DNA from: a virus
DNA: 64,000 nucleotides
Reading direction: 5' to 3' (one strand)
IMG/VR virus record: IMGVR_UViG_3300034102_001666
Location: 1 to 64,000 of that record
Shown: one piece after another, positions 2,852 to 47,757 of the stretch
Layout: each line of letters starts with the position of its first letter
Position numbering within the stretch: the stretch's first letter is position 1
Program-made: the position numbers and the translations under genes
Notes under the pieces: model-generated
The model's input: only the letters and a program-made list of their open reading frames with translations
Database searches by the model: none
Told to the model about the DNA's origin: nothing

Positions 2852-2860
2852 GGGTAAAAC
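2852..2860 (+). promoter_or_regulatory. GGGTAAA late-promoter candidate
   Basis: GGGTAAAAC directly after the terminator at 2813-2842 and 29 nt before the ATG at 2888. Its place between a terminator and a start codon fits a promoter. Confidence 0.6.
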
Positions 2861-2887
2861 CTTTGTAAGAATAGACCTTAAGAAGAA

Positions 2888-3364
2888 ATGGCCAAAACTC
2901 TATTTTCAAGTGGCGTTGTCGTAACAAGTGAGTGGCTAAATGGTGCAAGGAACATTGTTTTCGACGGCCAAGAACTTGACTGGCACTACAACCCCTTGGG
3001 TCTCGACGACCTTGAAAAGACAGGGCCTACCGGCTTAGACAGCCGCTACGTTACACTGACCACTGAGCAACCCACTTTGTCGGGCACCGGTCAACTTCTG
3101 TCTGGCACACCTATTTCTGGTTCAAAAGTTGTCTCAGGGTACTGGGGCTTCGGATTTGACCCCGCCTCAAATCCCACACTCACTCAGAACTATAACAAAG
3201 CTCCGCGAAGTTTCCTGACCAACCTTAAGTACAATAACGCCAACGGCATCAGCCCATCCTCAACCAGCCAGAAATTTGCAGCGTTAGCAGACGCAGACCT
3301 TGTAACGAAAAAAGTATTGTCCGACCAGTTGAATGCTCTTGTGGTGGACAACGGTACATACTGA
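2888..3364 (+). CDS. Virion structural protein, unknown
   Basis: A 158-residue protein, not recognised. It opens MAKTLFSSGVVVTSEWLNGARNIVFDGQELDWHY and contains GLDSRYVTLTTEQ, which resembles the particle-attachment segments found at the N-termini of phage appendage proteins. The C-terminus (ADLVTKKVLSDQL) looks helical. It stands alone behind a GGGTAAA motif and 13 nt ahead of the baseplate wedge gene, so a tail or baseplate role is likely. No membrane segment or catalytic motif is visible. Confidence 0.6.
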   Translation: MAKTLFSSGVVVTSEWLNGARNIVFDGQELDWHYNPLGLDDLEKTGPTGLDSRYVTLTTEQPTLSGTGQLLSGTPISGSKVVSGYWGFGFDPASNPTLTQNYNKAPRSFLTNLKYNNANGISPSSTSQKFAALADADLVTKKVLSDQLNALVVDNGTY

Positions 3365-3377
3365 ACGGAGAATTTAA

Positions 3378-7474: not shown

Positions 7475-7475
7475 A

Positions 7476-9534: not shown

Positions 9535-9545
9535 GGGTAAAAACT
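9535..9545 (+). promoter_or_regulatory. GGGTAAA late-promoter candidate
   Basis: GGGTAAAAACT directly after the TGA of the previous gene and 22 nt before the ATG at 9564. Confidence 0.55.
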
Positions 9546-9563: not shown

Positions 9564-9839
9564 ATGACCACACGAAGAAAAAGTACCCCCGACACAGAAA
9601 CAGTTCCCCCAGATAACACCGAGGAGACAACCACTGTGACAACTGCACCTGAACACCCTATCGAGGAACTAGGCGAGTCTCACCTGGAGCCTCACCAGGA
9701 AATCCCTCAGGAGGACCACCCTGAAGCAAGCTCTGAGGAGCCCCCGGTAAAAGAAGCAACGGTGGCATCACGACCACCCGCACTCGCTAAGCGACTACCG
9801 TCAAAAAACACTCCGAAGTTTTCCCTCAAGATACGGTAA
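9564..9839 (+). CDS. Small Pro/Glu/Thr-rich protein
   Basis: A 91-residue low-complexity protein: residues 10-70 are rich in Glu, Pro, Thr and Ser, and the last 20 are basic (LAKRLPSKNTPKFSLKIR). No domain is recognised, and such a composition suggests disorder. It lies between the baseplate operon and the gp5-like gene (3 nt gap). It could be a linker, chaperone or assembly factor for the spike. A GGGTAAA motif precedes it, so it is probably made late together with the spike. Confidence 0.55.
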   Translation: MTTRRKSTPDTETVPPDNTEETTTVTTAPEHPIEELGESHLEPHQEIPQEDHPEASSEEPPVKEATVASRPPALAKRLPSKNTPKFSLKIR

Positions 9840-11839: not shown

Positions 11840-11848
11840 GGGTAAAAT
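11840..11848 (+). promoter_or_regulatory. GGGTAAA late-promoter candidate
   Basis: GGGTAAAAT 50 nt before the preferred ATG at 11897 (14 nt before an alternative GTG at 11861). Confidence 0.5.
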
Positions 11849-11896
11849 AAAAAGATAAGGGTGAAAACACTCCCTGAAATTTTCACAACATCAGAC

Positions 11897-12066
11897 ATGA
11901 ACAAACTCGACCACTGTTACCTCGAAGCCCTCTCAGAAGCACTGAAAGGTAACTTAGGCGAAGCTTTAGAACTCCGCAATGAAGCGGATGCGTTAGCATC
12001 CGAAGGTTTGTCCTTCTCTGAAAATTACGGGAACAAATACCCATTCATTGAAGAAGCTGTGAACAC
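11897..12066 (+). repeat. 170-bp near-identical repeat, copy 1 (with 19827-19996)
   Basis: Differs from 19827-19996 at about six positions by eye. Both copies start at the ATG and cover the shared N-terminal module; the genes diverge after it. Confidence 0.9.
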
Positions 12067-12508
12067 TTTACTTGATTCGTACGAATTCACTCGCTGCGTG
12101 AAACCGTCCGGTGAAGCGTACGGAACAGCGGGGCAGTGCAGAAAAGGATCTGAAGAAGCTAAACCGGTAAAGGCGACTTCTCCCGCCAGGCGAACCAAGG
12201 TAGAAAGAGACATGGCTGCCCAAGCCACTCTCAAAAGACTCGCAGCCAAAGGTCCGGATACTTCCGTAAGAAAGCAGGGTGACAGGGTAGTGGTCAGTAA
12301 GGGGTCTGAGTTCAAGGCTGTTCTACACCCCGAGCACCACACTGCCCTTGGAAAGTTAAAGGAGGGGGAAAGGTTCAAATTTAAGGACGAAAGTGGCACC
12401 CATTGGTCGGCGACACGGTCCGGAAATAGTATACGCTTAGATGGGGGAGATACAAGGCATGGAAGCAAACCTTACATAATGTCAATAGGTAGGGACAAAC
12501 TGATGTGA
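11897..12508 (+). CDS. Tag-and-payload protein A (duplicated N-module)
   Basis: 203 residues from the ATG at 11897, chosen because the paralog at 19827 starts at the same codon; a GTG at 11861 would add 12 residues. Residues 1-60 form an acidic helical module (MNKLDHCYLEALSEALKG onward) almost identical to that at 19827. Then comes a two-Cys motif (FTRCVKPSGEAYGTAGQCRKG). The C-terminal 110 residues (DRVVVSKGSEFKAVLHPEHH, then FKFKDESGTHWSAT) form an unrelated small beta domain. Shared head plus different tail suggests a common targeting or packaging module with exchangeable cargo. No function is known to me. Confidence 0.65.
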   Translation: MNKLDHCYLEALSEALKGNLGEALELRNEADALASEGLSFSENYGNKYPFIEEAVNTLLDSYEFTRCVKPSGEAYGTAGQCRKGSEEAKPVKATSPARRTKVERDMAAQATLKRLAAKGPDTSVRKQGDRVVVSKGSEFKAVLHPEHHTALGKLKEGERFKFKDESGTHWSATRSGNSIRLDGGDTRHGSKPYIMSIGRDKLM

Positions 12509-12546: not shown

Positions 12547-12556
12547 GGGTAAAACC
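12547..12556 (+). promoter_or_regulatory. GGGTAAA late-promoter candidate
   Basis: GGGTAAAACC 23 nt before the ATG at 12577. Confidence 0.58.
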
Positions 12557-12576: not shown

Positions 12577-13656
12577 ATGTCAGTTCCGCAGATAAAGGAG
12601 GCCATACTCTCAGCACCGAGTACGGTTGTCCTGTACTTCGATAGCCCACTTGACACTCGGGTCAGTGTTCCCATAAGTTCCTTCACTGTGAACTACGGCC
12701 AGTACGGAGTAGAGACATTCGTGTACTCCTCGGACACAATGGTGTCCCTTGGCCTAGACAGCTGTTTGTCTGCTTGGGACGAGGTGTTTGTTTCCTATGA
12801 GCCCCCCGTCGCCTTAGCGTCCTGCATGAGGGGGCCAGTTCCCTCCACAGCTAGTGATGTTGAAAAGAAAAGAAACGCAGTACGAGGCTTTTACCGAGTT
12901 TCGGTCCGAAACACGCTCACACCGAGCGAACAAACGGAAAGCTCTCGCAAGGGTTCCAACCTTGGGCAGACTATTGGCGGTTACGGCTATCCGCATCAAG
13001 ATCGCTCAGGTGTTTTAACGCCAAACAGGTCCGACCCGCGTAGCGCGTCTCCCGACGATTTCATTATCGCTTACGGACTCAAGGAAGCCGTACAACTTAC
13101 AAACATTGACGACGCGAGTGCAAACTCGGTGAATGTTGCCAAGATGCGAATGGCAATCGAGGATGCAAACGCTCTCATAGACTCATACATTGAGCAGTCA
13201 GGGAAAGCGGGAAAGGTCCTAATTACGAGCAACCGCCGCCGAACGGCACTGATTATAGCCCGATACTACCTAGATAATGTCCGGCGAAGAGAAGATGTTT
13301 TCAAGGATTACACCGAAGCACTAAAACAACTCGACGCTGAACGAGAAATGACTTCGGTTCGTGCGGGCCACGGTGACTCAGCTATAGATACGAAAGCTGG
13401 GATCATGCGTTCTTGGCGCGTCCCCCAACGGTACAACGGAGTTTCAGGTAAAGGTTTCGGCGGATGGAACACGGACATGGCGGGAGACCAGGCTCCGGAC
13501 TTTCGTGCTGGTTTCGGGGCAACGGGGCAAAACAACTCTGAAACTAACTGGATCTCAGCACGAAACTACGAAGACTTAGGTGGGACTCCACAAATTACAG
13601 AGCCGAACGACGCAGGCGGCTATCGCGTTAACGGCTCTGATACGATCTACCCTTAA
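12577..13656 (+). CDS. Head-tail connector, DUF1320/Mu gp36-like domain
   Basis: A 359-residue protein. Residues about 188-260 (VAKMRMAIEDANALIDSYIEQ, then TALIIARYYLDNVRRREDVFKDYTEALKQL) match the helical pattern of the DUF1320/Mu gp36 family, which forms the connector ring below the portal. The N-terminal 130 residues are a separate beta domain, and the last 90 are Gly-rich and probably extended. It is directly followed by a gp37-like gene, the same pairing as in Mu, which strengthens the call. A GGGTAAA motif precedes it. Confidence 0.62.
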   Translation: MSVPQIKEAILSAPSTVVLYFDSPLDTRVSVPISSFTVNYGQYGVETFVYSSDTMVSLGLDSCLSAWDEVFVSYEPPVALASCMRGPVPSTASDVEKKRNAVRGFYRVSVRNTLTPSEQTESSRKGSNLGQTIGGYGYPHQDRSGVLTPNRSDPRSASPDDFIIAYGLKEAVQLTNIDDASANSVNVAKMRMAIEDANALIDSYIEQSGKAGKVLITSNRRRTALIIARYYLDNVRRREDVFKDYTEALKQLDAEREMTSVRAGHGDSAIDTKAGIMRSWRVPQRYNGVSGKGFGGWNTDMAGDQAPDFRAGFGATGQNNSETNWISARNYEDLGGTPQITEPNDAGGYRVNGSDTIYP

Positions 13657-15350: not shown

Positions 15351-17114
15351 ATGAACTTTCGCCCCCCGTCTATAACACACGCTTCTCAGCTAGAGGAAAA
15401 ATCCCGGTGGAGAAAATATACGAAGGGTATTCGAGAGCTTGAACTTCTTGAAGCACCTCGATCTGTAATTCAGGAGTTCAGGTTTAAGGCTGCCCGAGAT
15501 TGTTTCCTGGCCTTTTGTGACATCATGAAAAATGGGGACTTAAACGTTTCCCCCTTTCACGAGATCATTGCAAGTGCCTTTGAGGATCTTTACGAACGTC
15601 GATACAATCGGCTTATTATTTCGTGCCCCCCGCGTTCAGGAAAGTCTATGCTTTCCACAATGTTCCTGGCGTGGTTGCTCGGAAAAGACGAAAGAACCCA
15701 ACACATCTTGGCTTCCTACGGGGCTTCTTTATCTCAAAAGTTTCACAGAGAAGCTGTCGTAATGATGAAGACTCCCTCGTTTAGGAAGGTCTTTCCTGAG
15801 TTTTCAGGATTTAACCGTGACTCGAAATATGATTTAGTGGGTGGTGGTTATGTACTTGCGACATCCGTTGGAGGTATTCTCACTGGGTTCACGTCTGGAA
15901 CCATAGACATGGAATCCACGGGTATTGGTGCAGCACTAATTGACGACCCATTGAAATCTTCTGACTCTAAAGCAGCGCTGGAAAATTTAGAAAGTTGGTG
16001 GGCAGAGCAAATGTCCACACGAAGAACAAACCACTACGCTCAAGTTATTATAGCAACCCGTTTTCATGAAAAAGACCTTCACGGGGTCTTGATGGATGGA
16101 GATGGTTTATACGACCCGGAAGATAATCCTTTTGGATGGAGGTGGATAAACATAGCAGGGCTCTGTGAAGACCCTGATAATGATCCGCTGGGAAGAGAGA
16201 TGGGAGAAAGCCACTGGCCCGACAACCCCGCTTTCTCTGTTCCGATGCTTGAGTCCCAGAAAAAGATAATGGGTAGCTTTAAGTTCGCAGCACTTTACCA
16301 AGGGGTTCCTGTATCGGCTGAGGGACAGATTGTAAAGAATAGCTGGGTCAAGGTAATTGAGGAGGAAGACTGCCCTCCCCTGGACGTTGTATGGTTTGGA
16401 GTTGACTGCGCTTTCTCCGAGCGAGAGAAAGCAGATGAAAGTGCAATCTGCGTCGCGGGCATAAACACTCGTAATCCAGATACTGTTTACATTCGTGAGA
16501 TTGTTAAGGGTAAGTGGGGCTTTCCTGACTTGATTGACTCGGTAAAGCAACATTACGCCTTATACAACGCAAAGGTATTATGCATTGAGAAAGCCGCATC
16601 GGGGCACTCTCTCATTCAAATGCTGAAGCGAGAGGCTAAGATACCTATCGAGGAAATGAGGCCGCTGAAGTCAAAGACGACACGTCTTCAGGCAGTCTGC
16701 CCTTTACTCGAAAACCATCGCGTTATACTGGTTCGAGGACTATGGACTGACGCGTTCGTAAAGGAACTAACTTCTTTCCCGTATGTTAGCCACGACGATA
16801 GTACTGACGCCATGGTATGGGCGCTGACTTACTACTCGCTCAAAATTGACTCTGTGGATCGGGGTATACAAGACTCGATCATTCAGAGTCGAAAATGGGC
16901 TGGTGACCTACGCAGACCGATGTTCAGAGACGGTCAATCCTACGGTGGGCTTTTCGAAGAGCGAATTGTATCGGTCGGGGGCCGAAGAGTCCCCCGCAGT
17001 ACGGGCTTAAACGACCCTGACCCCCAGTCTGCCGAGACACTTGATAGGGGCATTTTCCGGGGTGGCCGCAGCCGAGGTCTTCGGAGCGGATCCGGCTACG
17101 ACCTTTTTAATTAG
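15351..17114 (+). CDS. Terminase large subunit (TerL-1)
   Basis: A 587-residue packaging motor protein. Walker A is PPRSGKS at residues 93-99 and Walker B is AALIDDP at 195-200, with an ATPase coupling segment (IIATRFHEKDL) at about 233-243. The nuclease domain starts at VDCAFSE (Asp352), followed by CIEKAASG and HDDSTDAMVWALTYY, which supply the expected three acidic metal-binding positions. It cuts concatemeric DNA and pumps it into the prohead. The N-terminal stretch ITHASQLEEKSRWRKY recurs in the next gene, which is a diverged copy. Confidence 0.92.
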   Translation: MNFRPPSITHASQLEEKSRWRKYTKGIRELELLEAPRSVIQEFRFKAARDCFLAFCDIMKNGDLNVSPFHEIIASAFEDLYERRYNRLIISCPPRSGKSMLSTMFLAWLLGKDERTQHILASYGASLSQKFHREAVVMMKTPSFRKVFPEFSGFNRDSKYDLVGGGYVLATSVGGILTGFTSGTIDMESTGIGAALIDDPLKSSDSKAALENLESWWAEQMSTRRTNHYAQVIIATRFHEKDLHGVLMDGDGLYDPEDNPFGWRWINIAGLCEDPDNDPLGREMGESHWPDNPAFSVPMLESQKKIMGSFKFAALYQGVPVSAEGQIVKNSWVKVIEEEDCPPLDVVWFGVDCAFSEREKADESAICVAGINTRNPDTVYIREIVKGKWGFPDLIDSVKQHYALYNAKVLCIEKAASGHSLIQMLKREAKIPIEEMRPLKSKTTRLQAVCPLLENHRVILVRGLWTDAFVKELTSFPYVSHDDSTDAMVWALTYYSLKIDSVDRGIQDSIIQSRKWAGDLRRPMFRDGQSYGGLFEERIVSVGGRRVPRSTGLNDPDPQSAETLDRGIFRGGRSRGLRSGSGYDLFN

Positions 17115-17147: not shown

Positions 17148-18569
17148 ATGTCACTTAAAAACCAAAAAATAACGCACGCTTCTCAGCTAGCAGAGCACTC
17201 AAGCTGGAGGAGCTACCGACGAAAACTCCTTGAGCTGAAACTTGAGGGGTTACCTCAAGAAGCGTTCGCTAAGGAAAGTGCGAAAAGTAGCTTTCTTGCT
17301 TTCTGCGATCTTGTGTCCGGTGCAGGAGGTTTCGCACTCGAAAACGCACCGCTCGATACAAAAGCGTACGAAGTGATAGGGTCCGCCTTTGAGGACATCG
17401 CCGAAGGAAGGTACCCAATTCTCCTCGTGTCAATGCCACCACGATCAGGAAAAACCACTCTGGGGGTTCACTTATTGTCCTGGCTCTTAAGGAAAGACTC
17501 TACTGTTAGTCATGTCGTAACTTCTTACGACCAAAGTGCATCCAGATTTGCAGCAAGTAGGGTGAAGGAACTGATTAGTACTCCTTCCTCTGGAGGGATT
17601 TTTTCGAAAGTTCAGTTGGAACCGCACCATGTTTCGCCGTCTGCTCCTGGGAGTTCTGTGTGCGGTCTCGCCTACGGGGGATTCAGAGGGGCCGGAGTTT
17701 GGTTGATCGATGACTACCATAAGTATATGGGTAATGGTGTTAATAGTGAATGGGTGGAGCAAATTGGAACCCTGGGAGTAGCGAATAGGGCCACAGTTGT
17801 TCTCGGGTCTCGAAGAGGTGAGGGGGATATTTTCAGCTACTTTCTGGAAAAGTACGGTGTCTTTGACCCAGGCTCAAACCCGAACGGAGCCGTTCACATT
17901 AACTTATCCGCCATCATTGAGAGCGAAGAAGAAGCCAAGGTTGATATTCTAGGTAGGAAAGTTGGGCAGGGTATCAATGACGCTCTTTCCTTCCGAGACC
18001 CCACATTTAGCCCGAAGAATCTACAGGACTTACGGAAAACAATCGGAGATGTAAAGTTCTCGTGGTTGTACAAAGGGGTGTCCAACACTGGGTTCGGAGT
18101 CTGCTCTGAGATCCCACACCTGGACAAGGTTATTATATCTATTGACCCCTCTTGCTCGCCAGGCAACGCGGATATGACTGGGATTTGTGTGGCTGGATCC
18201 ACGAAGGAAAAGGACTGTGTGTACGTTCTCGACGCGTACCAGGCGAATTGGGACTTGGAGACTGTTGGCGTAATTGTTTCTCTGGCTGCCAAAGCATACG
18301 GCGTGACAGAAGTTGTTATCGAGTCGTCCTGGGCGAGTAAGCACTGGAGACAGTACCTAGAGAAGCTAGGTTTACCTGTTCGAGTGAGCAAGGAGAGAGT
18401 GGTGGCTAAGGCACTTGCGATCAATCTAATGGTAAAGTCGGGGAAAGTAGCATCCAACTCAGATATACACAACGTGTTGTTTAAAAGTTGGGAGTGCATT
18501 GGATCGTACTCAGATATAATGGATGCTATTTTGGTTAGTTTCATGGAACTGCTTCCACCTGCTGTTTAA
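17148..18569 (+). CDS. Second terminase large subunit paralog (TerL-2)
   Basis: A 473-residue protein 33 nt after TerL-1. It shares the N-terminal ITHASQL-E-SSWRSY segment, Walker A (PPRSGKT, 97-103), Walker B (GVWLIDDYHKY), the coupling segment (TVVLGSRRGEGDIFSYF) and all three nuclease signatures (IISIDPSCSPGNAD, VVIESSWAS, SDIMDAILV). Key residues are present in both halves, so the copy looks active, not decayed. It is about 110 residues shorter, mainly in the ATPase middle and the C-terminus. Tandem intact TerL paralogs are unusual. It might form mixed motors, act at termination of packaging, or serve another DNA-translocation job. Confidence 0.88.
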   Translation: MSLKNQKITHASQLAEHSSWRSYRRKLLELKLEGLPQEAFAKESAKSSFLAFCDLVSGAGGFALENAPLDTKAYEVIGSAFEDIAEGRYPILLVSMPPRSGKTTLGVHLLSWLLRKDSTVSHVVTSYDQSASRFAASRVKELISTPSSGGIFSKVQLEPHHVSPSAPGSSVCGLAYGGFRGAGVWLIDDYHKYMGNGVNSEWVEQIGTLGVANRATVVLGSRRGEGDIFSYFLEKYGVFDPGSNPNGAVHINLSAIIESEEEAKVDILGRKVGQGINDALSFRDPTFSPKNLQDLRKTIGDVKFSWLYKGVSNTGFGVCSEIPHLDKVIISIDPSCSPGNADMTGICVAGSTKEKDCVYVLDAYQANWDLETVGVIVSLAAKAYGVTEVVIESSWASKHWRQYLEKLGLPVRVSKERVVAKALAINLMVKSGKVASNSDIHNVLFKSWECIGSYSDIMDAILVSFMELLPPAV

Positions 18570-18856: not shown

Positions 18857-18874
18857 AAAAAAAAAGGGGGGGGG
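18857..18874. repeat. A9G9 tract, copy 1
   Basis: Nine A then nine G, the same tract as at 19769-19786 on the other side of phoH. It lies in the gap 18836-19013, which otherwise holds one GGGTAAA motif and no ORF. Confidence 0.8.
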
Positions 18875-18879
18875 CCAAC

Positions 18880-18889
18880 GGGTAAAACT
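18880..18889 (+). promoter_or_regulatory. GGGTAAA late-promoter candidate
   Basis: GGGTAAAACT, 127 nt before the phoH ATG and next to the A9G9 tract. The distance is longer than at other sites. Confidence 0.4.
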
Positions 18890-19013: not shown

Positions 19014-19736
19014 ATGTTGAAAAGTCGAGACAAGCGCAAGTCACGTCGCGCTGAAACAGCTCAAACGGTTGAACGTTCCTATGGCCGGGGTATGGATGTT
19101 GCCCCACCTAAATTCTTAACCTGGCGCCAGGAAGAATTTTGGAACTTAATGAAGAAAAACACCGTAACAATTGCTGCAGGGAAAGCCGGAACGGGTAAGA
19201 CCCTTATTGCTCTACACTTCGGTCTTGTGGGTGTTGCAAACGGTGACTTTGAGAAGGTGTACTATGTTCGCAGTGATGTGGGTGTAGAACTTCAGCGTGG
19301 GCGTGGAGCATTGCCAGGAGAGATGTCAGATAAGATGGCCCCGTTGGTGGCACCTATTTATGATAATCTCCCTTGTATCATGCGCTCTCAAGGTGCAGCT
19401 GAGTACTTGCTGTCTAAGGGGATAATTAAGCCTATTCTCCTGGAAGATATTCGTGGGCGCTCACTCAATAACGCATTCATTATTGTAGATGAGGGGCAGA
19501 ATTTCTTGAAGTCGCACGTTATAACCGCCCTCACTCGCGTAGGTAAAGACTCAAAAATTTGCCTCATCGGTGACACGAAACAGGCGGACTTGGAGCAGTT
19601 TCGTCGAGATAACGGTTTACTCGATGCAATCCACCGACTGAGGAATCTAGACCAAGTTGGAATTATACAGTTTCAGAGAGAGGACATTGTCAGAAACTCA
19701 GTTATATCTCACATACTTGACAGGTACGAAGACTGA
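19014..19736 (+). CDS. phoH: PhoH-like P-loop ATPase
   Basis: 240 residues. Walker A is AGKAGTGKTL at about 55-64 and Walker B is AFIIVDEGQN at about 153-162, with GDTKQADLEQF downstream, the standard PhoH pattern (an SF1-helicase-related fold). PhoH is very common in cyanophages. Its biochemical role is still unsettled; RNA-related ATPase or phosphate-stress functions have been proposed. The gene is a single-gene unit with a terminator at 19741 and A9G9 tracts on both sides. Confidence 0.92.
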   Translation: MLKSRDKRKSRRAETAQTVERSYGRGMDVAPPKFLTWRQEEFWNLMKKNTVTIAAGKAGTGKTLIALHFGLVGVANGDFEKVYYVRSDVGVELQRGRGALPGEMSDKMAPLVAPIYDNLPCIMRSQGAAEYLLSKGIIKPILLEDIRGRSLNNAFIIVDEGQNFLKSHVITALTRVGKDSKICLIGDTKQADLEQFRRDNGLLDAIHRLRNLDQVGIIQFQREDIVRNSVISHILDRYED

Positions 19737-19764: not shown

Positions 19765-19773
19765 GGGTAAAAA
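19765..19773 (+). promoter_or_regulatory. GGGTAAA late-promoter candidate
   Basis: GGGTAAAAA that runs into an A9G9 tract, 55 nt before the ATG at 19827. Confidence 0.45.
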
Positions 19774-19786
19774 AAAAGGGGGGGGG
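19769..19786. repeat. A9G9 tract, copy 2
   Basis: Same nine-A nine-G tract as at 18857-18874. Confidence 0.8.
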
Positions 19787-19826: not shown

Positions 19827-19996
19827 ATGAACAAACTCGATCACTGTTACCTCGAAGCCCTTTCAGAAGCACTGAAAGGTAACTTAGGCGAAGCTTTAGA
19901 ACTCCGCAATGAAGCGGATGCGTTAGCATCCGAAGGTTTCTCCTTCTCCGAAAATTACGGGAACAAATACCCCTTCATTGAAGAAGCTGTAAACAC
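19827..19996 (+). repeat. 170-bp near-identical repeat, copy 2 (with 11897-12066)
   Basis: Covers the start codon and the first 56 codons; about six differences from copy 1 by eye. Confidence 0.9.
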
Positions 19997-20451: not shown

Positions 20452-20461
20452 GGGTAAAACT
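20452..20461 (+). promoter_or_regulatory. GGGTAAA late-promoter candidate
   Basis: GGGTAAAACT after a G8 run, 72 nt before the ATG at 20531. A CCCCTCT...AGAGGGG inverted repeat (20424-20450) lies just before it. Confidence 0.45.
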
Positions 20462-21244: not shown

Positions 21245-21253
21245 GGGTAAAGT
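21245..21253 (+). promoter_or_regulatory. GGGTAAA late-promoter candidate
   Basis: GGGTAAAGT 24 nt before the ATG at 21276. Confidence 0.58.
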
Positions 21254-21890: not shown

Positions 21891-22571
21891 GTGGGCAATC
21901 CTAGGAAAAAATGCACAGCAGGAAAGTCTTGCTCAGCGACTTGCATAAGCAAGGATTTTAAGTGCGAGAAAAAGTTGCCGGCGCCAGTGAGCGACAGTCT
22001 CTCGCGTAACAGCGAGAGGTTGTTGCACCTTGGAGAGCATGTTGGGGCCAACGTAACGTCGTGGAAAGCGGGGAAAGTTGTTGGACCCTTGGTATCAAAG
22101 TACCTGGAAACTCGCTACGGCATACCCCCGGAAACCACAGAAAAGTTGTCGGAAACAATTGTTCAAGCGGTGGTTGCCACGGGACTTCACTCTCGCCATT
22201 TAAGGTCGGGTGAGGACTTTGTAAGGGACCTGCTCACAGAAGCTTCTGCCGCGTTCCTGGGAAAAAGTGCCCACGCGGGCGTGGACAGTTTTCTAACCAG
22301 CCAGGAAAGTCGTGAGATTATCCATCAAGCTCTGCCCCTACTTGCAGGAAAGTTCACTGGAGTTGGTGCTGCGTTTGTAGGGTCAAAACTTCCCAAAGTG
22401 GCCCAAATTTCGGGCGCCATATCACGAAAGTACAGCGCCGACCTTTTAAGGCTTCAGAAGTTATTTAGAGGTTCTGAGGCATCCTTTTCTGAGCAAACCT
22501 CTCAAGCAACCTCAGCTAAACTTCTCGGAGATCTTTCTCTTCTCTCGGTTTTGCTGTCCTTGAAAGGGTAA
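21891..22571 (+). CDS. Cys-tagged (CxxGKSC..TCIS..C) hypothetical protein
   Basis: 226 residues from GTG 21891, with a purine-rich AAGGGGAA just before it. Residues 7-26 (KCTAGKSCSATCISKDFKC) are the same four-Cys tag as in the kinase-like protein at 26237. The rest is helical with Ala/Leu/Ser-rich stretches and some hydrophobic segments (AGKFTGVGAAFVGSKLPKV) but no clear membrane helix. Its stop codon lies inside a GGGTAAA motif. The shared tag suggests a common fate, such as virion loading, with different bodies. Function unknown. Confidence 0.6.
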   Translation: MGNPRKKCTAGKSCSATCISKDFKCEKKLPAPVSDSLSRNSERLLHLGEHVGANVTSWKAGKVVGPLVSKYLETRYGIPPETTEKLSETIVQAVVATGLHSRHLRSGEDFVRDLLTEASAAFLGKSAHAGVDSFLTSQESREIIHQALPLLAGKFTGVGAAFVGSKLPKVAQISGAISRKYSADLLRLQKLFRGSEASFSEQTSQATSAKLLGDLSLLSVLLSLKG

Positions 22572-22575
22572 AACT
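22566..22575 (+). promoter_or_regulatory. GGGTAAA late-promoter candidate
   Basis: GGGTAAAACT that includes the TAA stop of the previous gene, 22 nt before the ATG at 22595. A TATACT follows at 22578-22583. Confidence 0.58.
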
Positions 22576-22963: not shown

Positions 22964-22972
22964 GGGTAAAGT
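22964..22972 (+). promoter_or_regulatory. GGGTAAA late-promoter candidate
   Basis: GGGTAAAGT 24 nt before the ATG at 22995. Confidence 0.58.
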
Positions 22973-22994
22973 TAAGAATCAACGTAAGACCCCT

Positions 22995-24164: not shown

Positions 24165-24173
24165 GGGTAAAGT
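24165..24173 (+). promoter_or_regulatory. GGGTAAA late-promoter candidate
   Basis: GGGTAAAGT 25 nt before the ATG at 24197. Confidence 0.58.
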
Positions 24174-25012: not shown

Positions 25013-25021
25013 GGGTAAAAC
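25013..25021 (+). promoter_or_regulatory. GGGTAAA late-promoter candidate
   Basis: GGGTAAAAC 22 nt before the ATG at 25042. The gap 24918-25041 also holds an ATTCTCCC...GGGGAAT inverted repeat and no ORF. Confidence 0.58.
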
Positions 25022-25572: not shown

Positions 25573-25581
25573 GGGTAAAGT
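25573..25581 (+). promoter_or_regulatory. GGGTAAA late-promoter candidate
   Basis: GGGTAAAGT 41 nt before the ATG at 25621; AAGAAGGGAA just before that ATG is a ribosome binding site. Confidence 0.55.
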
Positions 25582-27668: not shown

Positions 27669-27678
27669 GGGTAAAAGT
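27669..27678 (+). promoter_or_regulatory. GGGTAAA late-promoter candidate
   Basis: GGGTAAAAGT, 41 nt before the ATG of the 1590-residue fibre gene. Confidence 0.55.
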
Positions 27679-32492: not shown

Positions 32493-32502
32493 GGGTAAAA
32501 CT
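32493..32502 (+). promoter_or_regulatory. GGGTAAA late-promoter candidate
   Basis: GGGTAAAACT 27 nt before the GTG start at 32527. Confidence 0.58.
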
Positions 32503-32526: not shown

Positions 32527-35500
32527 GTGGCATTAACAAGAGCTCAACTACTCATGGGAGACAGCGGCAAGGGCGCTGTTTTATCTGGTCAGCCCCAGGG
32601 GGTTAAGGAGGGGGCTGGCGTAACAATAGGGCTGGACGGGACTATTTCCTTCAATGCTTCGACCTCGTCAGGGGTGATTAAAACTAACAGCAATACAGCC
32701 TTTAACTCGTATGTTTGGCCCGCTGCCCCGGTGGTTGGTGGTCAGCTCACCGTTGGCACCAACGGGGTGCTTTCGTGGGTTGTTAGGAATCCGGGATTTG
32801 GCTTAAATTTAGTCGGCACGGCGATAAAAGTCTCGCTACCTTTCGGGACAGTTGAAAATGTCCCTGAAATTGGAACAAACGAAGACGAAGCCACAATCGG
32901 AAGTCTGTACTGGAACAGTGAAAGTGAGCGACTGTACATTTGCACAGGAACCTCTTGGGTTCCGGCATCTTATGGGCCACCGGACTTAAACCAGGCACTT
33001 CTCACAGGGACTTACACCCTTTACGTTAACCCTCAGATTGGGAGTGACATTTTTGTCTCAGGAATTTATGATAACACCGTTTCACCGATTGTAACAAATC
33101 AGATGGCTGTGTCAGGGTACACTCCTCAGAAGCCATTCAAGACAATTCAAAGAGCCGCTCTTGAGGTTGCTCGATTCCAGGTGGGAACACAACCGAACCC
33201 GTTAGCATTTGACCGCTTTGTGATAAAATGCTCGGCAGGAGAGCACATCATTGATGGGACGCCAGGGAGCGCTACAGTTAGCCCGTGGGTTAGCGGCACG
33301 ACTCCAACGGAGTCCCAGTTAAGTGCAATGAACAGCAACTCTTACGCCGGGGTCATACTTCCCCGAGGGGTGTCTGTTATTGGTGCGGACTTGAGAAAAA
33401 CCATAATTAGACCGAACTATGTTCCGGCCAAGACCGGGAACATTGACACGAACAGGGGTTCGATTCTTCGCGTTACAGGGGGAGGGTTCTTCTTCAACTT
33501 TACTTTCAAGGACAAGCTGGGTTTAGCGGCTAGCCACCACTTGCTCGATTGCTTCTCGTTCGTCTCCGACACTGACCTAACTGCGTACTACGCTAAAGCT
33601 CAGACAATTTTCGCTCAACTCAGTCCAAACCTCATCACAAACCCAGGAGAGACCGAAATTGTTGCACCCCAACCCTCAGGGATTCCGGAGGAGACCACTG
33701 ACGGAATCACCGGCTCCTCTCCGTACATTTTTAACTGTTCCATAAGATCCAGCTATGGCCTCTGTGGCATAAACGCGGATGGGAATGATGTGACCGGGTT
33801 TAAGTCCATCGTAACATCTCAGTTCACTGGAGTTTCCCTGCAGAGAGACTTGTACTGTTGGCAGAGATATAACGCCTTCACGAACGTTTGGGGGAACACG
33901 ATTTCCAACTACAACACCTATATTACCCTAGACCCCAACAACCTGAGAATGGACCCTACTCGAAGGTCCTACCATATACGAGCTATTAACGACGCGTTCG
34001 TTCAGGAGGTTTCCGTGTTTGCCATTGGGCAAGGTGTGCACCACTGGGTGAAAAGCGGCGGAGAAATCTCAATAACTAACTCCAATAGTTCCTTCGGTGG
34101 CTGTGCTGCTTTAGCCGAAGGTTACAAGTCTGAGGCTTTTCCTCAAGATACGAATTGGGACGTTGCAACCATAAACGTTGCCACCAACTTAGCGGATCAG
34201 CAAACTGTCGTCAGAACCATTGAGATCGGCAAGGTCTCTTCCGGTCAGGTGAACAACTCAACTATTATAACTCTAGACAAACCACTTTTGGAGTCGGAAG
34301 TTTATTCAGGAGAGCCTCAAATTCTGGCTTCCAGAAATTACACGTTCAAAGCTGGAAGTTACCTTTGGATAGAAAACCCACGAGGTTTTTCCTGGAGAGC
34401 ACCTTTAGCTACGGGCGCCTGGGATGCTGCAAACCCCGAGCAAATTAAGATATCTGCTGCAATGCAGAATCAGATCGGTGGTGTGCCTGGGGGTACGGGT
34501 AACCAGGCGAGCCTTTCAGGTAGTCGAGTGTTTATTCGTCGCCTAGTTGACACAAGGTCCCCGAGCCAGAGGCAGTTTAGCGTAAACATCACAAACACGA
34601 ACCCGAATGTTCGCTCTCCGATGAGAGACTACGTTCTACAAACCTCTCCTGGGGGACCTGTTCTAAGCCTCATGTCAGACTCGGACTTGGTTATTGTGAA
34701 AAAGTCGGACTTGGTTCCAATTGGCTCAGACGCTGTTGCTAAAAAGTCCAGAGTTGTTTTACAGCGGTCCAACGCAGTCAAAACTTGGACCCCTGGTGAG
34801 TACTACCGCAAGGGAGAAACAGTACGCCACCTGAATAAACACTATAGTTGTGTCCTTAAAAACTTCGACACTGTTTTCGACTTCGAGAAGTGGAAAGAGT
34901 CGTACGTTCACATGGAGTCTGACTACAATGCTTACGACTTCTTCCTGAACACCACTCCTGTAGTTGTCTTTGACAACGACACGGACGGTTTAGCCGGAAC
35001 TTCGAATTGTGGATACAACTTAACAACATGCTGGACGAACGACGAAGCAATTAAGGGCCAGTATACTACTGCTACTGACTACCGTGGTCTCTACCAGTTT
35101 CTAGTTGGCATCGGCTTTACTAATAGCCAAGCCAGAAGCTTATTGACTCCTACCACAACCCCTAACAGGGAGCTTGACACATCAAATAGTGAGGACATGA
35201 AAGGGTATGCGCCGTCGGGAGTGGCGAATGCCTTGGCACACTGGTCTATTGACTTCCGTAGGCCATCCACAGTCCGCATGTTTGGCCATTCTTGGGAGTG
35301 GGCGGGTTTCTTAAACTACACGAAAGCTTTACCGTCTTATCAAGGGGACTTGTCAATTCAAAACCAGTTCACTTACTACTTCACCAACCAGCTTGGGGGC
35401 CGTGTTTACGCAACAGGCTCAAATCAGGAAGGTTATTTTGTAACTGCTGCAGGGTTAACTGACTTAAGCACGAATGAGACCCTGGGTGTAGCCGACCTTG

Positions 35501-36015
35501 GGAGCTACTTCCCCGAGAGCAACAACCAGAATATTTCCTCGGATATTACAGGGGGGTTGGGTATTGATGTCTCGGACTCGACAGTCAAGCTCAAAGTTCC
35601 CGCCCTTACCACTGCACCTTCGATTGGAAGTTCCCCCGAGGGGGCAATAGACGGGTCGTTGTACTGGAATCCTAACTCCGGAGCCCTCTTCATTCTGTAC
35701 AACGACGGAACATCGAGGCAGTGGGTTCAGACTTCAACCGGTGGAATTCCAGTTGTAGTAGTTAATGACAACTACACGGCTTCAGTACCCGACTACGTGG
35801 TTGTCACCGCCTCAGGAAAAACGATTACATTACCAGCAACACCCTCCCCTGGAGACGCCCTGACTGTAGTTGTTGCTGGCACTTGGTTGAATACTGTAGT
35901 TGGCCGCAACGGCTCAAACATAATGGGACTTTCACAAAACCTCACCCTTGACAAAAAGTATGCTGCTATGACCTTTACTTACATTGACTCTACAAACGGT
36001 TGGAGGCTTAGCTAA
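32527..36015 (+). CDS. Large tail fibre protein, paralog of the 27717 product
   Basis: 1162 residues from GTG 32527. It lacks the KRP attachment module but has the same central body as its neighbour: TPQKPFKTIQRAALEVARF, then VTGFKSIVTSQFTGVSLQRD, HHWVKSGGEISITNSNSSFG and HSWEWAGFLNYTKALPSYQG. A short block (GSLYWNSESERLYICTG) near residue 120 and its echo GSLYWNPNSGALFILYN near residue 1045 are fibre spacer repeats. The C-terminal 80 residues form a beta domain with TLPATPSPGDALTVV, typical of fibre tips. It overlaps the next gene's start by one base. Confidence 0.7.
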   Translation: MALTRAQLLMGDSGKGAVLSGQPQGVKEGAGVTIGLDGTISFNASTSSGVIKTNSNTAFNSYVWPAAPVVGGQLTVGTNGVLSWVVRNPGFGLNLVGTAIKVSLPFGTVENVPEIGTNEDEATIGSLYWNSESERLYICTGTSWVPASYGPPDLNQALLTGTYTLYVNPQIGSDIFVSGIYDNTVSPIVTNQMAVSGYTPQKPFKTIQRAALEVARFQVGTQPNPLAFDRFVIKCSAGEHIIDGTPGSATVSPWVSGTTPTESQLSAMNSNSYAGVILPRGVSVIGADLRKTIIRPNYVPAKTGNIDTNRGSILRVTGGGFFFNFTFKDKLGLAASHHLLDCFSFVSDTDLTAYYAKAQTIFAQLSPNLITNPGETEIVAPQPSGIPEETTDGITGSSPYIFNCSIRSSYGLCGINADGNDVTGFKSIVTSQFTGVSLQRDLYCWQRYNAFTNVWGNTISNYNTYITLDPNNLRMDPTRRSYHIRAINDAFVQEVSVFAIGQGVHHWVKSGGEISITNSNSSFGGCAALAEGYKSEAFPQDTNWDVATINVATNLADQQTVVRTIEIGKVSSGQVNNSTIITLDKPLLESEVYSGEPQILASRNYTFKAGSYLWIENPRGFSWRAPLATGAWDAANPEQIKISAAMQNQIGGVPGGTGNQASLSGSRVFIRRLVDTRSPSQRQFSVNITNTNPNVRSPMRDYVLQTSPGGPVLSLMSDSDLVIVKKSDLVPIGSDAVAKKSRVVLQRSNAVKTWTPGEYYRKGETVRHLNKHYSCVLKNFDTVFDFEKWKESYVHMESDYNAYDFFLNTTPVVVFDNDTDGLAGTSNCGYNLTTCWTNDEAIKGQYTTATDYRGLYQFLVGIGFTNSQARSLLTPTTTPNRELDTSNSEDMKGYAPSGVANALAHWSIDFRRPSTVRMFGHSWEWAGFLNYTKALPSYQGDLSIQNQFTYYFTNQLGGRVYATGSNQEGYFVTAAGLTDLSTNETLGVADLGSYFPESNNQNISSDITGGLGIDVSDSTVKLKVPALTTAPSIGSSPEGAIDGSLYWNPNSGALFILYNDGTSRQWVQTSTGGIPVVVVNDNYTASVPDYVVVTASGKTITLPATPSPGDALTVVVAGTWLNTVVGRNGSNIMGLSQNLTLDKKYAAMTFTYIDSTNGWRLS

Positions 36016-40990: not shown

Positions 40991-41752
40991 TCAAAAATCC
41001 AGAGAAAGATCCTCCGTGTCACATTTGGAGAAAGATCCAAGAACTTCCTCAGAAGTTTTATAACCCTCGCACCCTTTTGACCGATTAGCCGAGGAGCACA
41101 CCAAAGAAAAATTAGCCTTTGCAAGGTGATAGCTTTTCCAGTCTTTCCATAGGGCTTTGTCCTTAAACTCCTTCGCCGTGGGTGGGCCAACCAGAAAAAT
41201 ATCTACGTAGGTTAACGAGTTTAGTTTAACGAACGAGTCTGCAATTTCAGCAAAAGACAAACCCACATGGTCCACGTCGGTTTTCATGCCCCTTCTTAGG
41301 TTCTTTCCCGTCAGGTAACAAGTTGCCGGAAGACATACAGAGTCTCGAAAGTCCCTCAGCTGTTGAGAAACCCCGCTCCTCATGGCCGCCTTCACAGCAT
41401 TAAAATGTTTCTCCTCTAAGCTTGCGCTTGTTGCGATTTTCTTCGGAGGGTACAAAAAGTCGATAAGTTTCTTCTTGGGTATCGGTTGCTTGGAGCCACC
41501 TCTTTCGAGGCTTAGCATTTTCACTCTCATGCCGCCAGCGATATCAACATTCCTGAGATAGAGCTTAACTTCCGGGTCTGTAGACAACTTTTCCCAAGTA
41601 GGTGTGACTCGGCACGACCTTAGAACGAAGTCTTTTGGTTCACCGATAAGCTGGGAATTTACTCGGTGGTTCTCTATAATTCTACTCAGTTTATCTGTGT
41701 AATCTTTTTTGGTTAGTCCGAATGTTTGTTTGCCGAGTGTGTCGCTCATCAA
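40991..41752 (-). CDS. Putative HNH-type nuclease, only minus-strand gene
   Basis: 253 residues, the sole gene on the minus strand. The core (CYLTGKNLRRGMKTDVDHVG, about 155-175) has a C-x-x-T-G turn and a D-V-D-H motif, followed by FAEIADSFVKLNSL and WKSYHLAKANFSLVCSSANR with a terminal His and Asn. This is how HNH-like nucleases with a divided Cys/His core appear, and it suggests a free-standing mobile endonuclease. The C-terminus is DTEDLSLDF, an ending like that of the exonuclease at 42439. A reverse GGGTAAA motif lies 19 nt before its start. Family assignment is tentative. Confidence 0.55.
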   Translation of the reverse strand: MMSDTLGKQTFGLTKKDYTDKLSRIIENHRVNSQLIGEPKDFVLRSCRVTPTWEKLSTDPEVKLYLRNVDIAGGMRVKMLSLERGGSKQPIPKKKLIDFLYPPKKIATSASLEEKHFNAVKAAMRSGVSQQLRDFRDSVCLPATCYLTGKNLRRGMKTDVDHVGLSFAEIADSFVKLNSLTYVDIFLVGPPTAKEFKDKALWKDWKSYHLAKANFSLVCSSANRSKGCEGYKTSEEVLGSFSKCDTEDLSLDF

Positions 41753-41770: not shown

Positions 41771-41778
41771 CTTTACCC
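41771..41778 (-). promoter_or_regulatory. GGGTAAA late-promoter candidate, minus strand
   Basis: CTTTACCC on the + strand, GGGTAAAG on the minus strand, 19 nt before the start of the minus-strand gene at 41752. The motif turns with the gene. Confidence 0.6.
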
Positions 41779-41790
41779 TTGGCTTAACAG

Positions 41791-41799
41791 CGCTAAACT
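41791..41799 (+). promoter_or_regulatory. Early-type -10 box (CGCTAAACT)
   Basis: CGCTAAACT 24 nt before the GTG at 41824, the first gene of the enzyme operon; the same nine bases occur at 60882-60890. Confidence 0.5.
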
Positions 41800-41823
41800 C
41801 CAGGTAGAAACAACTAGCTAAAT

Positions 41824-43059: not shown

Positions 43060-43064
43060 ACACA

Positions 43065-43436: not shown

Positions 43437-43437
43437 C

Positions 43438-44471: not shown

Positions 44472-44520
44472 TTTACGAATAGCGATAGACCCTAGAATAA
44501 GGGTGCTACCGCTGAATTAT

Positions 44521-45504: not shown

Positions 45505-45506
45505 GG

Positions 45507-45525
45507 CGGTAAAACGGGTAAAACT
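45507..45525 (+). promoter_or_regulatory. Doubled late-promoter motif
   Basis: CGGTAAAAC then GGGTAAAACT side by side, 21 nt before the ATG at 45547. The second copy (45516-45525) has the standard form and spacing. Confidence 0.58.
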
Positions 45526-45546
45526 AGGAAGAATGATTGTTCTTGG

Positions 45547-46218
45547 ATGCAGTCCGACTTATCCTACTTTGCTCATTGTAGCTCAATGGCGCACCTTCTT
45601 CTCGAAGCGTGCGGAGGAAATGTTGCGAGCATTCCTCAGAGTTACCTAGATAACTTTGCCCACGAATTCGCTGATGGAGACGTTTCACTAGTCTCTGCAC
45701 TTTCAAAGGTTGATGGAGTAGGGGACTTGAGCACTGAAGAAGTTGACGAGACCTTGGAAATGCTACAAAAGGTAAACCCTGACCACTGGCCGTCTGCAGA
45801 GTCCATAGAAAGTATATTTCCCGAAAAGCTCTGGAATAGCGAAAGCGACCCTCAGGTTCTCTCAGACAATTTCGTTGAGGATAACCTAGGAACTGCCGAA
45901 AAAGTTGAGCGGGTTCTTACAAGTGTTATCGGGAGCGTTTTCGGAGACTCAGTTAACAGCATTCGTGATTCTAAGGGCAAGTACCCTTCAAGCTCGAACG
46001 ACTTTCTGCAAGTTGATGACGGAACGTTCGCAGGAACTTTTCAGTATGACAGTCACCGTTTCAACTTTGAGATTGCGCCGACTGAGCAGGGGTGGATTTG
46101 CACATACCGCCTAGACGAGTCCTCTCTCGATGCAATTCCACAAATTGTGAAAGATGTGAAGAGGGACGATAAGAAGAACACTAGCATGAAGAAAACCCGT
46201 AGCCAGGGGTGGAAATAA
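45547..46218 (+). CDS. Tail-region hypothetical protein
   Basis: 223 residues. The N-terminal half is helical and acidic (FADGDVSLVSALSKVDGVGD); the C-terminal half has a beta section (GTFAGTFQYDSHRFNFEIA). Position just before the tube/LysM-type protein and the tape measure suggests a tape-measure chaperone or tail assembly factor. The stop overlaps the next start (TAATG). Confidence 0.5.
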   Translation: MQSDLSYFAHCSSMAHLLLEACGGNVASIPQSYLDNFAHEFADGDVSLVSALSKVDGVGDLSTEEVDETLEMLQKVNPDHWPSAESIESIFPEKLWNSESDPQVLSDNFVEDNLGTAEKVERVLTSVIGSVFGDSVNSIRDSKGKYPSSSNDFLQVDDGTFAGTFQYDSHRFNFEIAPTEQGWICTYRLDESSLDAIPQIVKDVKRDDKKNTSMKKTRSQGWK

Positions 46219-47741
46219 TGGCCTTTTCCGGAGTCATTCCCACAATCTCAGTAAGCTCAAACTCCCTTGTGAACAGTGTTGCAGGGGGTCTAATAAATAA
46301 TGTCGCATCCTCAGCAGTCAAGGTAGCATTAAGCCCCAAACTGTCAAACCAATGGGCAAGCTCCTCAGGATTAAGCCCGCAGTCAATTACTTCGCTGTTG
46401 AGCTCGGCAGTAACACCTGGGCTAATTTCAACTGGTAGTAAAGCCATATCCCAGTCCTTGACGGCTTCGATTGTCAACTCAAAAGCCCTTGGCCCCTTGG
46501 GTTCGTTGGTGCAAGACTTTGCGGGAAACGCGGTTAGTGACTTGTCGCGAGACATACTGGGTACGATGTTCCCAGCAACAGTAAGTAGCCCAACTAAATT
46601 CTTTCCAGGGGCAGGAAACGAGCCAGACGCGGATTACCAAGGGTACGCTTACAATCCCGGAACAAATGGCGCTGACGTGGTGTTTTCTATTAAGCCCGCA
46701 GTTTCTGGAGCCCAGGCGGAAATTACGGATCAAGTGTCGGGTAGGGGTGGGAGTGGTGTTCAAACATCTCTACCTGCAGGGCAAAGTGTTCCGTCTTCAG
46801 GGGGATTGCCCCCAACACCGAAGGCCGACTACTCAGCAGCATTTCAGAGTGCCTCTGGAGCTGTCCTCGGAGACTTGACAAAACAAGCCAACTTAGCGGG
46901 TTCCTTTCGTGGTGTTCCGTTTGGGAGCCCTGACGCATTTAAGGCAATATCGACGATCCCGCAGATTCTTACAAGCTCCACAGTAGGACAACCCTTCTCT
47001 CAAGATTCACAACAGTCCTCAGTGTGGAACTTTATCTGCGCACCTGAAGAAATTTCCTGGTCAACCGCCGTTCAGGTGGATAGAGTTCCAATTTTCGGCA
47101 CAAACCTGCCACCCGTGATATCGGGCAGCCGGGGAATGAGGGAACTAAGTATGTCAAACGCTCTTGTGGAGGGTTTCACAAGGGGGAAGACCATTGAAGG
47201 GAAGGTTTCTGACTTGGAAAAACTCCTGAGTTTCACACTGGACACGCAAAACGGCTACGTTAAGGTACCCGTGTATTGGGTCTATGCAAATAATAAGAGA
47301 TACGGTGATGTTGACGGTGGATGCTTTCTCATTAAAGAAGTGAAAGTGAAGGAGGAAATGAGAGACTTGACTGGCCTTGCAACACGTGCCAAGGTTGACA
47401 TTTCCTTTTCACAAGTTCCCTCGTACCAAGTTGATGACGGGAGAGATGTAGCAAGCAAAACAGTTTCTGGGACTACCTCGAATTTGGGTGCCGTTGCGAG
47501 TGTTCTGTCGACTCGTCCGGTGGTTGTAAATCGGGCGCCGGCGAGTTCTTCTCGGGGGGGAGGGGGCGTGGCCGGACAAACTAATCAAGGTGTTTCGCCG
47601 ACAACAAAAATTCCCGGTGTACCCCCCGGAGCAACAAATGTGAGAGTCAATGTGAATAAAAAGGGTGAAAGTACCGTAAGTTACTCTAACAAGGGGGTTG
47701 AAGTTCGTAAGACATTGCCCCAGGGTCAAGGACAGTTTTAG
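46218..47741 (+). CDS. Baseplate/tube-cap protein of the CIS tube (gp53/XkdP) type
   Basis: 507 residues from ATG 46218. The first 170 are Ser/Ala-rich helices. Residues about 270-410 hold the domain used for the call: VWNFICAPEEISWSTAVQVD, then ISGSRGMRELSMSNALVEGF and VPVYWVYANNKRYGD, ending SFSQVPSYQVDDGRD. This is the pattern of the contractile-injection-system tube/LysM family that caps the tube at the baseplate. No LysM repeat is visible at the C-terminus. It lies just before the tape measure gene. Confidence 0.62.
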   Translation: MAFSGVIPTISVSSNSLVNSVAGGLINNVASSAVKVALSPKLSNQWASSSGLSPQSITSLLSSAVTPGLISTGSKAISQSLTASIVNSKALGPLGSLVQDFAGNAVSDLSRDILGTMFPATVSSPTKFFPGAGNEPDADYQGYAYNPGTNGADVVFSIKPAVSGAQAEITDQVSGRGGSGVQTSLPAGQSVPSSGGLPPTPKADYSAAFQSASGAVLGDLTKQANLAGSFRGVPFGSPDAFKAISTIPQILTSSTVGQPFSQDSQQSSVWNFICAPEEISWSTAVQVDRVPIFGTNLPPVISGSRGMRELSMSNALVEGFTRGKTIEGKVSDLEKLLSFTLDTQNGYVKVPVYWVYANNKRYGDVDGGCFLIKEVKVKEEMRDLTGLATRAKVDISFSQVPSYQVDDGRDVASKTVSGTTSNLGAVASVLSTRPVVVNRAPASSSRGGGGVAGQTNQGVSPTTKIPGVPPGATNVRVNVNKKGESTVSYSNKGVEVRKTLPQGQGQF

Positions 47742-47748
47742 TTCTACG

Positions 47749-47757
47749 GGGTAAAGT
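47749..47757 (+). promoter_or_regulatory. GGGTAAA late-promoter candidate
   Basis: GGGTAAAGT 39 nt before the ATG of the tape measure gene. Confidence 0.55.

Follow-up and report, generated by a model that had tools for sequence, protein, structure and literature searches.

A heptamer, GGGTAAA, recurs in a 64,000-nucleotide stretch of viral DNA (the window), which comprises bases 1-64000 of the 72,872-base IMG/VR record IMGVR_UViG_3300034102_001666, labelled G000 among the genomes compared here. GGGTAAA is a real, clade-wide, promoter-like element without a -35 box that stands before virion-type genes, and it is very probably a late promoter, its late timing being presumed. The reading adopted here, with a probability of about 0.8, is that GGGTAAA is a -10-only promoter read by a phage-encoded sigma factor, for which two candidate genes, sigma A and sigma B, were found in the record (Table 1).

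Distribution and conservation of GGGTAAA

GGGTAAA was found 22 times in the window (21 forward, 1 reverse), whereas dinucleotide shuffles gave 9.2 +/- 2.7 copies and none of 100 shuffles reached 22; the reversed string AAATGGG, used as a control, occurs 4 times forward and 0 times in reverse. All 18 sites listed by the first-pass annotation were present, the reverse one at 41772-41778, and four further copies were located, three within called open reading frames (ORFs; 14781, 38677 and 59881) and a fourth where the primase ORF ends (56490). The full record contains 27 forward copies and 1 reverse copy. This lone reverse copy precedes the gene at 40991-41752, which, as had been noticed, is the only clear minus-strand gene, the remaining listed minus-strand ORFs overlapping plus-strand genes. 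By mechanical gene calls, 19 copies fall between genes in the sense orientation and 5 inside coding sequence, and the single antisense intergenic copy is the minus-strand gene's own site; 3 of the 28 occurrences lie in stretches skipped by the script that made the assignment. Equal frequency inside genes or in both orientations, which had been named beforehand as the outcome that would speak against a promoter, was not seen. Most sites had been placed 22-29 nucleotides (nt) before a start codon; with the distance taken between the end of the motif and the start called for the gene, 10 of the 18 fit, and the other eight stand at 14, 19, 39, 41, 41, 55, 72 and 127 nt.

The nearest named isolate is Synechococcus phage S-CBWM1 with a 139-kb genome (60% identity in the terminase large subunit, TerL, and 48% in the sigma at 58938), and closer relatives are present in IMG/VR, where 35 and 37 loci were found for the two phage sigmas in records of up to 277-279 kb. 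A 277-kb record, G002, is over about 193-266 kb largely colinear with the window's record, so the latter probably represents part of a larger genome. Judging from S-CBWM1 and from psbA in G002, G010 and G012, the host would be cyanobacterial; a megablast search of 45516-62500 against phages gave no match.

Motif discovery over all upstream regions, which the first-pass annotation had proposed, was carried out as a scan of 7-mers seen at least 4 times in sense intergenic DNA against the coding strand of genes, with mechanical ORF calls. GGGTAAA came first (counts: intergenic, coding, antisense) in G000 (19, 5, 1), S-CBWM1 (23, 6, 1), G006 (21, 16, 5), G010 (17, 11, 1), G013 (18, 11, 2), G017 (10, 3, 2) and G023 (16, 11, 2), second in G018 (15, 19, 4), fourth in G022 (29, 28, 4) and G014 (5, 2, 0), and fifth in G002 (30, 17, 13), where runs of T, runs of C and a terminator-like repeat outrank it. 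Besides G000 and S-CBWM1, it therefore ranks 1-5 in 9 of 10 related records, G012 being the exception. As a positive control, 50 kb of phage S-PM2 were put through the same scan, which placed the T4-type late box ATAAATA at the top.

The sites are shared between orthologous genes. In G000 and G006, whose proteins have a median identity of 77%, a site precedes both orthologs in 11 pairs, a single one in 3 and 2, and neither in 36 (p=4e-7); the corresponding figures are 11, 3 and 4, and 41 for G000-G010 (p=1.4e-6) and 17, 5 and 7, and 134 for G002-G006 (p=1.5e-13). Sharing is weaker with S-CBWM1 at a median identity of 44-45% (p=0.005 for G006, p=0.011 for G002). When upstream regions were aligned, the motif bases of 14 sites were 94% identical between G000 and G006 against 60-65% upstream and 64-70% downstream, those of 13 sites had an identity of 0.86 between G000 and G010 against 0.55-0.66 upstream, and those of 8 sites had an identity of 0.77 between G000 and S-CBWM1 against 0.43-0.55 in the flanks.

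S-CBWM1 has an annotation of its own, in which 43 forward and 6 reverse copies can be set against listed genes. An annotated plus-strand coding sequence (CDS) starts at most 110 nt downstream of 37 of the 43 forward sites, and 21 of the 43 lie 28-40 nt before such a start, a zone that covers 1.6% of positions. Sheath, portal, head protease, major head protein and tape-measure genes are among those preceded by a site, and three of the 36 tRNA or pseudo-tRNA genes have one 18-39 nt upstream. With genes grouped by product name, and genes inside operons counted as lacking a site, GGGTAAA(A/G) lies within 125 nt of 11 of 22 virion, lysis or lectin genes versus 4 of 35 others (p=0.002). The claim that the motif precedes virion or small late-type genes and not replication genes therefore holds broadly and not strictly, as those four non-virion genes encode a homing endonuclease, a nicotinamide mononucleotide (NMN) adenylyltransferase, the beta subunit of ribonucleotide reductase (RNR) and PhoH. 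Directly upstream of three S-CBWM1 sites (26662, 65887 and 126638), a near-identical sequence GATGTGAAAGATTxxxCACTGTCCCA was also observed.

A second promoter class was seen in G002, where 38 of 42 plus-strand GGGTAAAR copies fall in 160-277 kb, the region of virion genes, and 12 of the 16 minus-strand copies in 0-160 kb. The sigma-70-promoter-like sequence TTG-N19-21-TATAGT has 26 of its 31 sites in 0-160 kb. G002 also carries a repeated module, in which a terminator-like GGGCGGTTTCCC stretch is followed by TTGTTT...TATAGT with a start codon nearby, on both strands and mostly in 0-160 kb (for example at record positions 5593, 11294 and 30348). A sigma-70-like sequence was found 36-41 nt before the start of sigma A in 6 of 12 genomes (G000 and those named in Table 1), and the 260 nt preceding each of the two sigma genes contain no GGGTAAA in the 12 genomes, sigma B lying beyond the end of G006.

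Shape of the element and its candidate readers

For the shape of the element, 150 distinct upstream sites were pooled from 8 of the 12 records, G000, G006, G012 and G022 being left out for redundancy or few sites, and compared with 243 copies lying inside genes of the full set of 12. Information is carried at -1 (A, with T very rare), +7 (A), +8 (C/T), +9 (T/C) and +14 (A in 89 of 150), and more weakly at +13 (T in 65 of 150). Among the copies inside genes, every position stays at or below 0.07 bits. As the first-pass annotation had it, there is no -35 partner: between -45 and -2 the information stays at or below 0.09 bits throughout, and this position scan brought up no hidden -35 box. In a variable-spacing scan of 4- to 6-mers, GCACCC stood out with 5 sites against 0.2 expected, an excess that holds when all 4096 words are corrected for, and GATA with 22 against 9.4, at about 0.04 corrected. 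Neither was counted as a box, because their positions are spread over -34 to -20 and over -40 to -18, and neither is fully explained. Terminator-like hairpins were counted in the 45 nt ahead of each site: 11 of 152 sites have one, versus 11 of 470 matched windows before motif-less genes and 6 of 1600 random windows; the random windows are not matched to intergenic DNA, and the matched control lowers the contrast to 11/152 against 11/470.

A transcription start with its box near -10 would look like the T/A step seen at +13/+14, and the single-box layout of a T4-type late promoter was found in the 150 sites, its -10 placement hanging on that presumed start. GGGTAAA(A/G)(C/T)T would then be the -10 element of a phage-specific promoter, without a -35 box, that starts virion and other late-type transcripts. 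RNA would most likely begin with the A that stands 14 nt past the first G, which would place the box at about -14 to -8, the T at -1 and the A at +1, with leaders most often of about 15-25 nt. The host core RNA polymerase would carry a phage-encoded sigma at GGGTAAA, and other genes, in several members including that of sigma A, would be under sigma-70-type promoters.

Both candidate sigmas match Pfam region 2 above the cut-off (39.6 bits for sigma A and 34.0 for sigma B vs 24) and the general sigma families, no gp55 profile having been searched on its own. The general sigma-70/ECF profile also fits sigma A along residues 24-195, with a score over its cut-off (43.7 vs 42.9 bits). Residues 135-196 of sigma A align to SigA domain 4 (Z 9.2, root-mean-square deviation (rmsd) 2.2, 62 residues), with a Pfam region 4 match below cut-off only; among matches in the PDB it prefers RpoS over chain 1l0o. 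The best families of sigma B are SigF, SigB/F/G and FliA/WhiG, all far below cut-off. Its C-terminal part has no match to a Pfam region-4 profile and is modelled as three helices with moderate confidence. Fold searches returned the sigma fold for the candidates; whole-chain rmsd was mostly above 20 A, and the domain arrangement was hence not used. Region 2.3-2.4 is the most constant part of sigma B (mean identity 0.93, 15 of 29 positions invariant in 20 rows), and the same region of sigma A has a mean identity of 0.78 with 4 of 26 invariant, in a protein of greater overall divergence (0.67 vs 0.73). Searches of genome contigs yielded no cellular relative of sigma B: none of 27 pattern matches was confirmed, the search reaching only relatives with two short conserved stretches.

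Sigma B is somewhat favoured as the reader, since a SigB/SigF-like protein without a clear region 4 better fits a promoter without a -35 box; a sigma that keeps SigF-like reading of the -10 and lacks -35 binding would account well for the element. The first-pass annotation had taken the sigma near 58938-59552 as the natural reader, and this protein stays a candidate with sigma B now preferred over it. A more speculative account, on the doubtful side of even odds, is that a SigB/SigF-like sigma was made into a dedicated late factor by loss of -35 binding, so that the -10 box alone defines the promoter, in convergence with T4 gp55 from another sigma branch and within a two-sigma relay from host sigma-70 to sigma A to sigma B.

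Several observations weigh against the promoter reading or against its assignment to sigma B. Neither transcript 5' ends nor a time course were found, and promoter activity, start site and late timing are presumed. The spacing is odd at 56490 and 18880, and taken by itself the sharing of sites between G000 and S-CBWM1 orthologs falls short of significance (both in 5 pairs, a single one in 4 and 7, neither in 20; p=0.11). Raw main-strand counts barely exceed those of the reversed string in G015 (7 vs 5), G018 (21 vs 16), G020 (25 vs 20), G022 (35 vs 26) and G023 (14 vs 11). GGGTAAA is not enriched in G012 (2, 4, 0) despite the presence of both sigmas; this record is poor in virion genes, the S-CBWM1 TerL, portal, sheath, major head and tape-measure proteins all lacking a match there. 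Nor was it enriched in the 7-mer scan of S-CBS2 and S-CRES1, whose sigmas are annotated as SigF, and these two contradict the expectation that GGGTAAA goes with every SigF-like phage sigma. Sigma B is far below the SigF and SigBFG cut-offs (45.6 vs 261 and 44.8 vs 234 bits), the RpoH profile aligns along it to residue 238, its model is weak (predicted local distance difference test, pLDDT, 72; predicted template modelling score, pTM, 0.42), and structural alignments run across its C-terminal helices. Sigma A has partial SigF/SigBFG matches at residues 12-74, short of the part that reads the -10. PDB chain 1l0o, listed only as 'sigma factor' and taken by us to be SigF, matches both, at 4e-5 for sigma B (its best PDB sequence match) and 2e-4 for sigma A. 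Finally, both sigmas occur together in 11 of 11 records checked, so assignment of the reader by co-occurrence failed.

That the same promoter is read by sigma A, a sub-case of the adopted reading, is considered unlikely. Its superfamily match extends above cut-off over nearly its full length, it shares with sigma B its presence in every record checked, and the sigma-70-type promoter before it in half of the genomes is as expected for an early-made activator. However, its region-4-like domain predicts a -35 box, of which none was found, and its region 2.3-2.4 is less constant than that of sigma B though the motif is constant, a weak argument as sigma A is more divergent overall.

A host group-3 sigma of the SigF type, acting with no phage sigma, is an improbable reader. 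GGGTAAA contains GGTAA and with it a -10 of the group-3 type (GGGTAT/GGTAA), and a GGTAA box at -12 is required by Synechocystis SigF according to the available parts of the source papers (PMC8346170, PMC2758279). The same parts give TAGGC at -32 as a further requirement, whereas TAGGC was found in the upstream stretch of only 1 of 150 sites, no upstream position is conserved, and the group-3 arrangement of GTTT at -35 or TAGGC at -32 is absent. Other Synechococcus phages have different motifs before virion genes (ATAAATA in S-PM2, GG[AC]AT[AC]CTA in S-CBS2), which argues for lineage-specific readers.

An action of GGGTAAA in RNA, as a translation enhancer or a leader processing site, has a very low probability. 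The motif does lie close upstream of start codons, and 15 of 24 S-CBWM1 genes with a site lack a Shine-Dalgarno-like 4-mer; the 9 of 24 that have one, however, match the usage among all genes (60 of 172). Start-codon spacing is variable, terminator-like hairpins stand upstream, the downstream T/A step fits initiation, and a translation signal would not explain the sites before the three tRNA or pseudo-tRNA genes; the tRNA-gene sites and the variable spacing in particular disfavour a translation element. Chance or compositional enrichment is next to nil in probability: the shuffle mean is 9 and several copies (14781, 38677 and 66511, all in genes) probably did arise so, yet shuffle counts, 7-mer ranks and motif conservation reject it, and orientation and the 150-site profile oppose it.

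Sites and neighbouring genes of the window

Table 1. Positions of the motif sites, sigma genes and related features, in window coordinates except where the record is named
Feature	Position	Strand	Context
GGGTAAA site	2852..2858	+	36 nt before ORF 2888-3364; directly 3' of terminator-like hairpin; 36-nt spacing also in G006
GGGTAAA site	9535..9541	+	before ORF 9564-9839; 29-nt spacing also in G006
GGGTAAA site	11840..11846	+	before ORF 11861-12508
GGGTAAA site	12547..12553	+	before head-tail adaptor gene 12577-13656; G006 ortholog without site
GGGTAAA site	18880..18886	+	upstream of PhoH gene 19014-19736, its called start 127 nt past the motif's end
GGGTAAA site	19765..19771	+	before ORF 19827-20411
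GGGTAAA site	20452..20458	+	before ORF 20531-20866, start uncertain
GGGTAAA site	21245..21251	+	before ORF 21276-21878; 31-nt spacing also in G006
GGGTAAA site	22566..22572	+	before ORF 22595-22915; overlaps upstream stop codon; G006 ortholog without site
GGGTAAA site	22964..22970	+	before ORF 22995-23789; 31-nt spacing also in G006
GGGTAAA site	24165..24171	+	before ORF 24197-24571
GGGTAAA site	25013..25019	+	before ORF 25042-25557; kept in G006 (29 vs 31 nt)
GGGTAAA site	25573..25579	+	before ORF 25621-26055; GGGTAAG at that place in G006
GGGTAAA site	27669..27675	+	before baseplate-wedge-like gene 27717-32489; 48-nt spacing also in G006
GGGTAAA site	32493..32499	+	before BNR-repeat-like gene 32527-36015; kept in G006 and S-CBWM1 (34/36/36 nt)
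GGGTAAA site	41772..41778	-	before minus-strand gene 40991-41752; reverse site kept in G006, no exact one in S-CBWM1
GGGTAAA site	45516..45522	+	before ORF 45547-46218; G006 and S-CBWM1 orthologs also with site
GGGTAAA site	47749..47755	+	before tape-measure gene 47795-51427; kept in G006 and S-CBWM1
Extra GGGTAAA	56490..56496	+	3' end of primase ORF; 10 nt before ATG, atypical spacing
Extra GGGTAAA	59881..59887	+	54 nt before ORF 59935-60273; spacing equal in G006
Sigma-70-type promoter-like TTGCCT-N16-TATACT	58902..58929	+	before sigma A; like sequence in G002, G006, G010, G013, weaker in G023
Sigma A, 204 aa	58938..59552	+	sigma-70 region 2 and region-4-like domain
RNR large-subunit ORF	62527..64000 (62527-64470 in record)	+	cut by window end; sigma B next
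Sigma B, 242 aa	record 64421-65149, just outside window	+	sigma-70 region 2; after RNR genes

The primase gene of S-CBWM1 likewise carries a GGGTAAA at its end (99643). Beside two of the window's sites, at 18857-18874 and 19769-19786, runs of A give way to runs of G. Three group I introns were identified with Rfam at 984-1234, 1266-1541 and 55191-55419 (103, 85 and 52 bits); two of them are in tandem, 31 nt apart, just before the frame of the major head protein (1575), and the gene for this protein is therefore probably split. The terminase large subunit (15351-17114) is followed by an ORF at 17148-18569 that weakly matches the same nuclease domain (E 0.0007, below cut-off).

Comparison with known promoter systems

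No report of a GGGTAAA cyanophage promoter was found in the literature searched, which included the available part of PMC10452541, the original S-CBWM1 genome paper being outside its scope; the words 'promoter' and 'transcript' are absent from the main text of PMC10783000 in the portion available. The element offers a testable late-transcription code for a group of large cyanobacterial viruses, by which late genes of unknown function may be recognised from sequence, and the pair of S-CBWM1 and its host Synechococcus CBW1002 makes this code directly testable. It would also be an independently built phage late promoter without a -35 box for comparison with T4.

In S-CBS2 another motif, GG[AC]AT[AC]CTA, was observed 16 times forward and 0 in reverse (for example at record positions 22981, 25096 and 28254), with 14 of the 16 sites 23-58 nt before a listed CDS start, many of them structural; S-CRES1 has 7 and 0. 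This motif looks like another cyanophage late promoter in S-CBS2, and phages of the S-CBS2 type may have done similarly with a box of their own.

The group-3 promoters are alike in the -10 core GGGTA/GGTAA, and a phage sigma has a similar region 2. In the portions of PMC8346170 and PMC2758279 available, the Bacillus subtilis SigB promoter is given as GTTTAA-N12-14-GGG(A/T)A(A/T) and that of Synechocystis SigF as TAGGC and GGTAA, their -10 boxes including GGGTAT and GGTAA. Unlike these promoters, the phage element has no -35 or -32 box, which weighs against the kinship, and its box is longer (TAAA, then A/G, C/T and T); unlike the SigB and SigF proteins, sigma B falls far below the family cut-offs and has no clear region 4. 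The phages phiEco32 and 7-11, as described in the accessible text of PMC4331800, also combine a phage sigma and a short motif of its own before structural genes with sigma-70 early promoters, whereas their motif, TGATGT with TATA, is different and has few copies. Ma-LMM01 is a cyanophage with early, middle and late classes that differs in keeping SigA-like promoters at late genes, and the study describing it (PMC5780444) reports no phage-specific motif.

The closest likeness is to the T4 late promoter and gp55, for which the parts of PMC2988020 available describe a late box about one helical turn before the start. Both systems have a single -10 box, no conserved -35, many copies before virion genes and a phage sigma as the presumed reader, and S-PM2 represents the cyanophage version of the T4 system. 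The box is GGGTAAA instead of the T4 TATA box: as had been stated at the outset, the motif is unlike the T4 late box TATAAATA, no consensus of that type was found, and ATAAATA occurs 2 times forward and 3 in reverse in the record. The T4-type clamp family PF02916 was found in 0 of 5 records searched, which are possibly fragments, no T4-like positive control having been run, and the candidate sigma B resembles SigB/F types. In conclusion, GGGTAAA would work like a T4 late promoter, yet it is not one by sequence.

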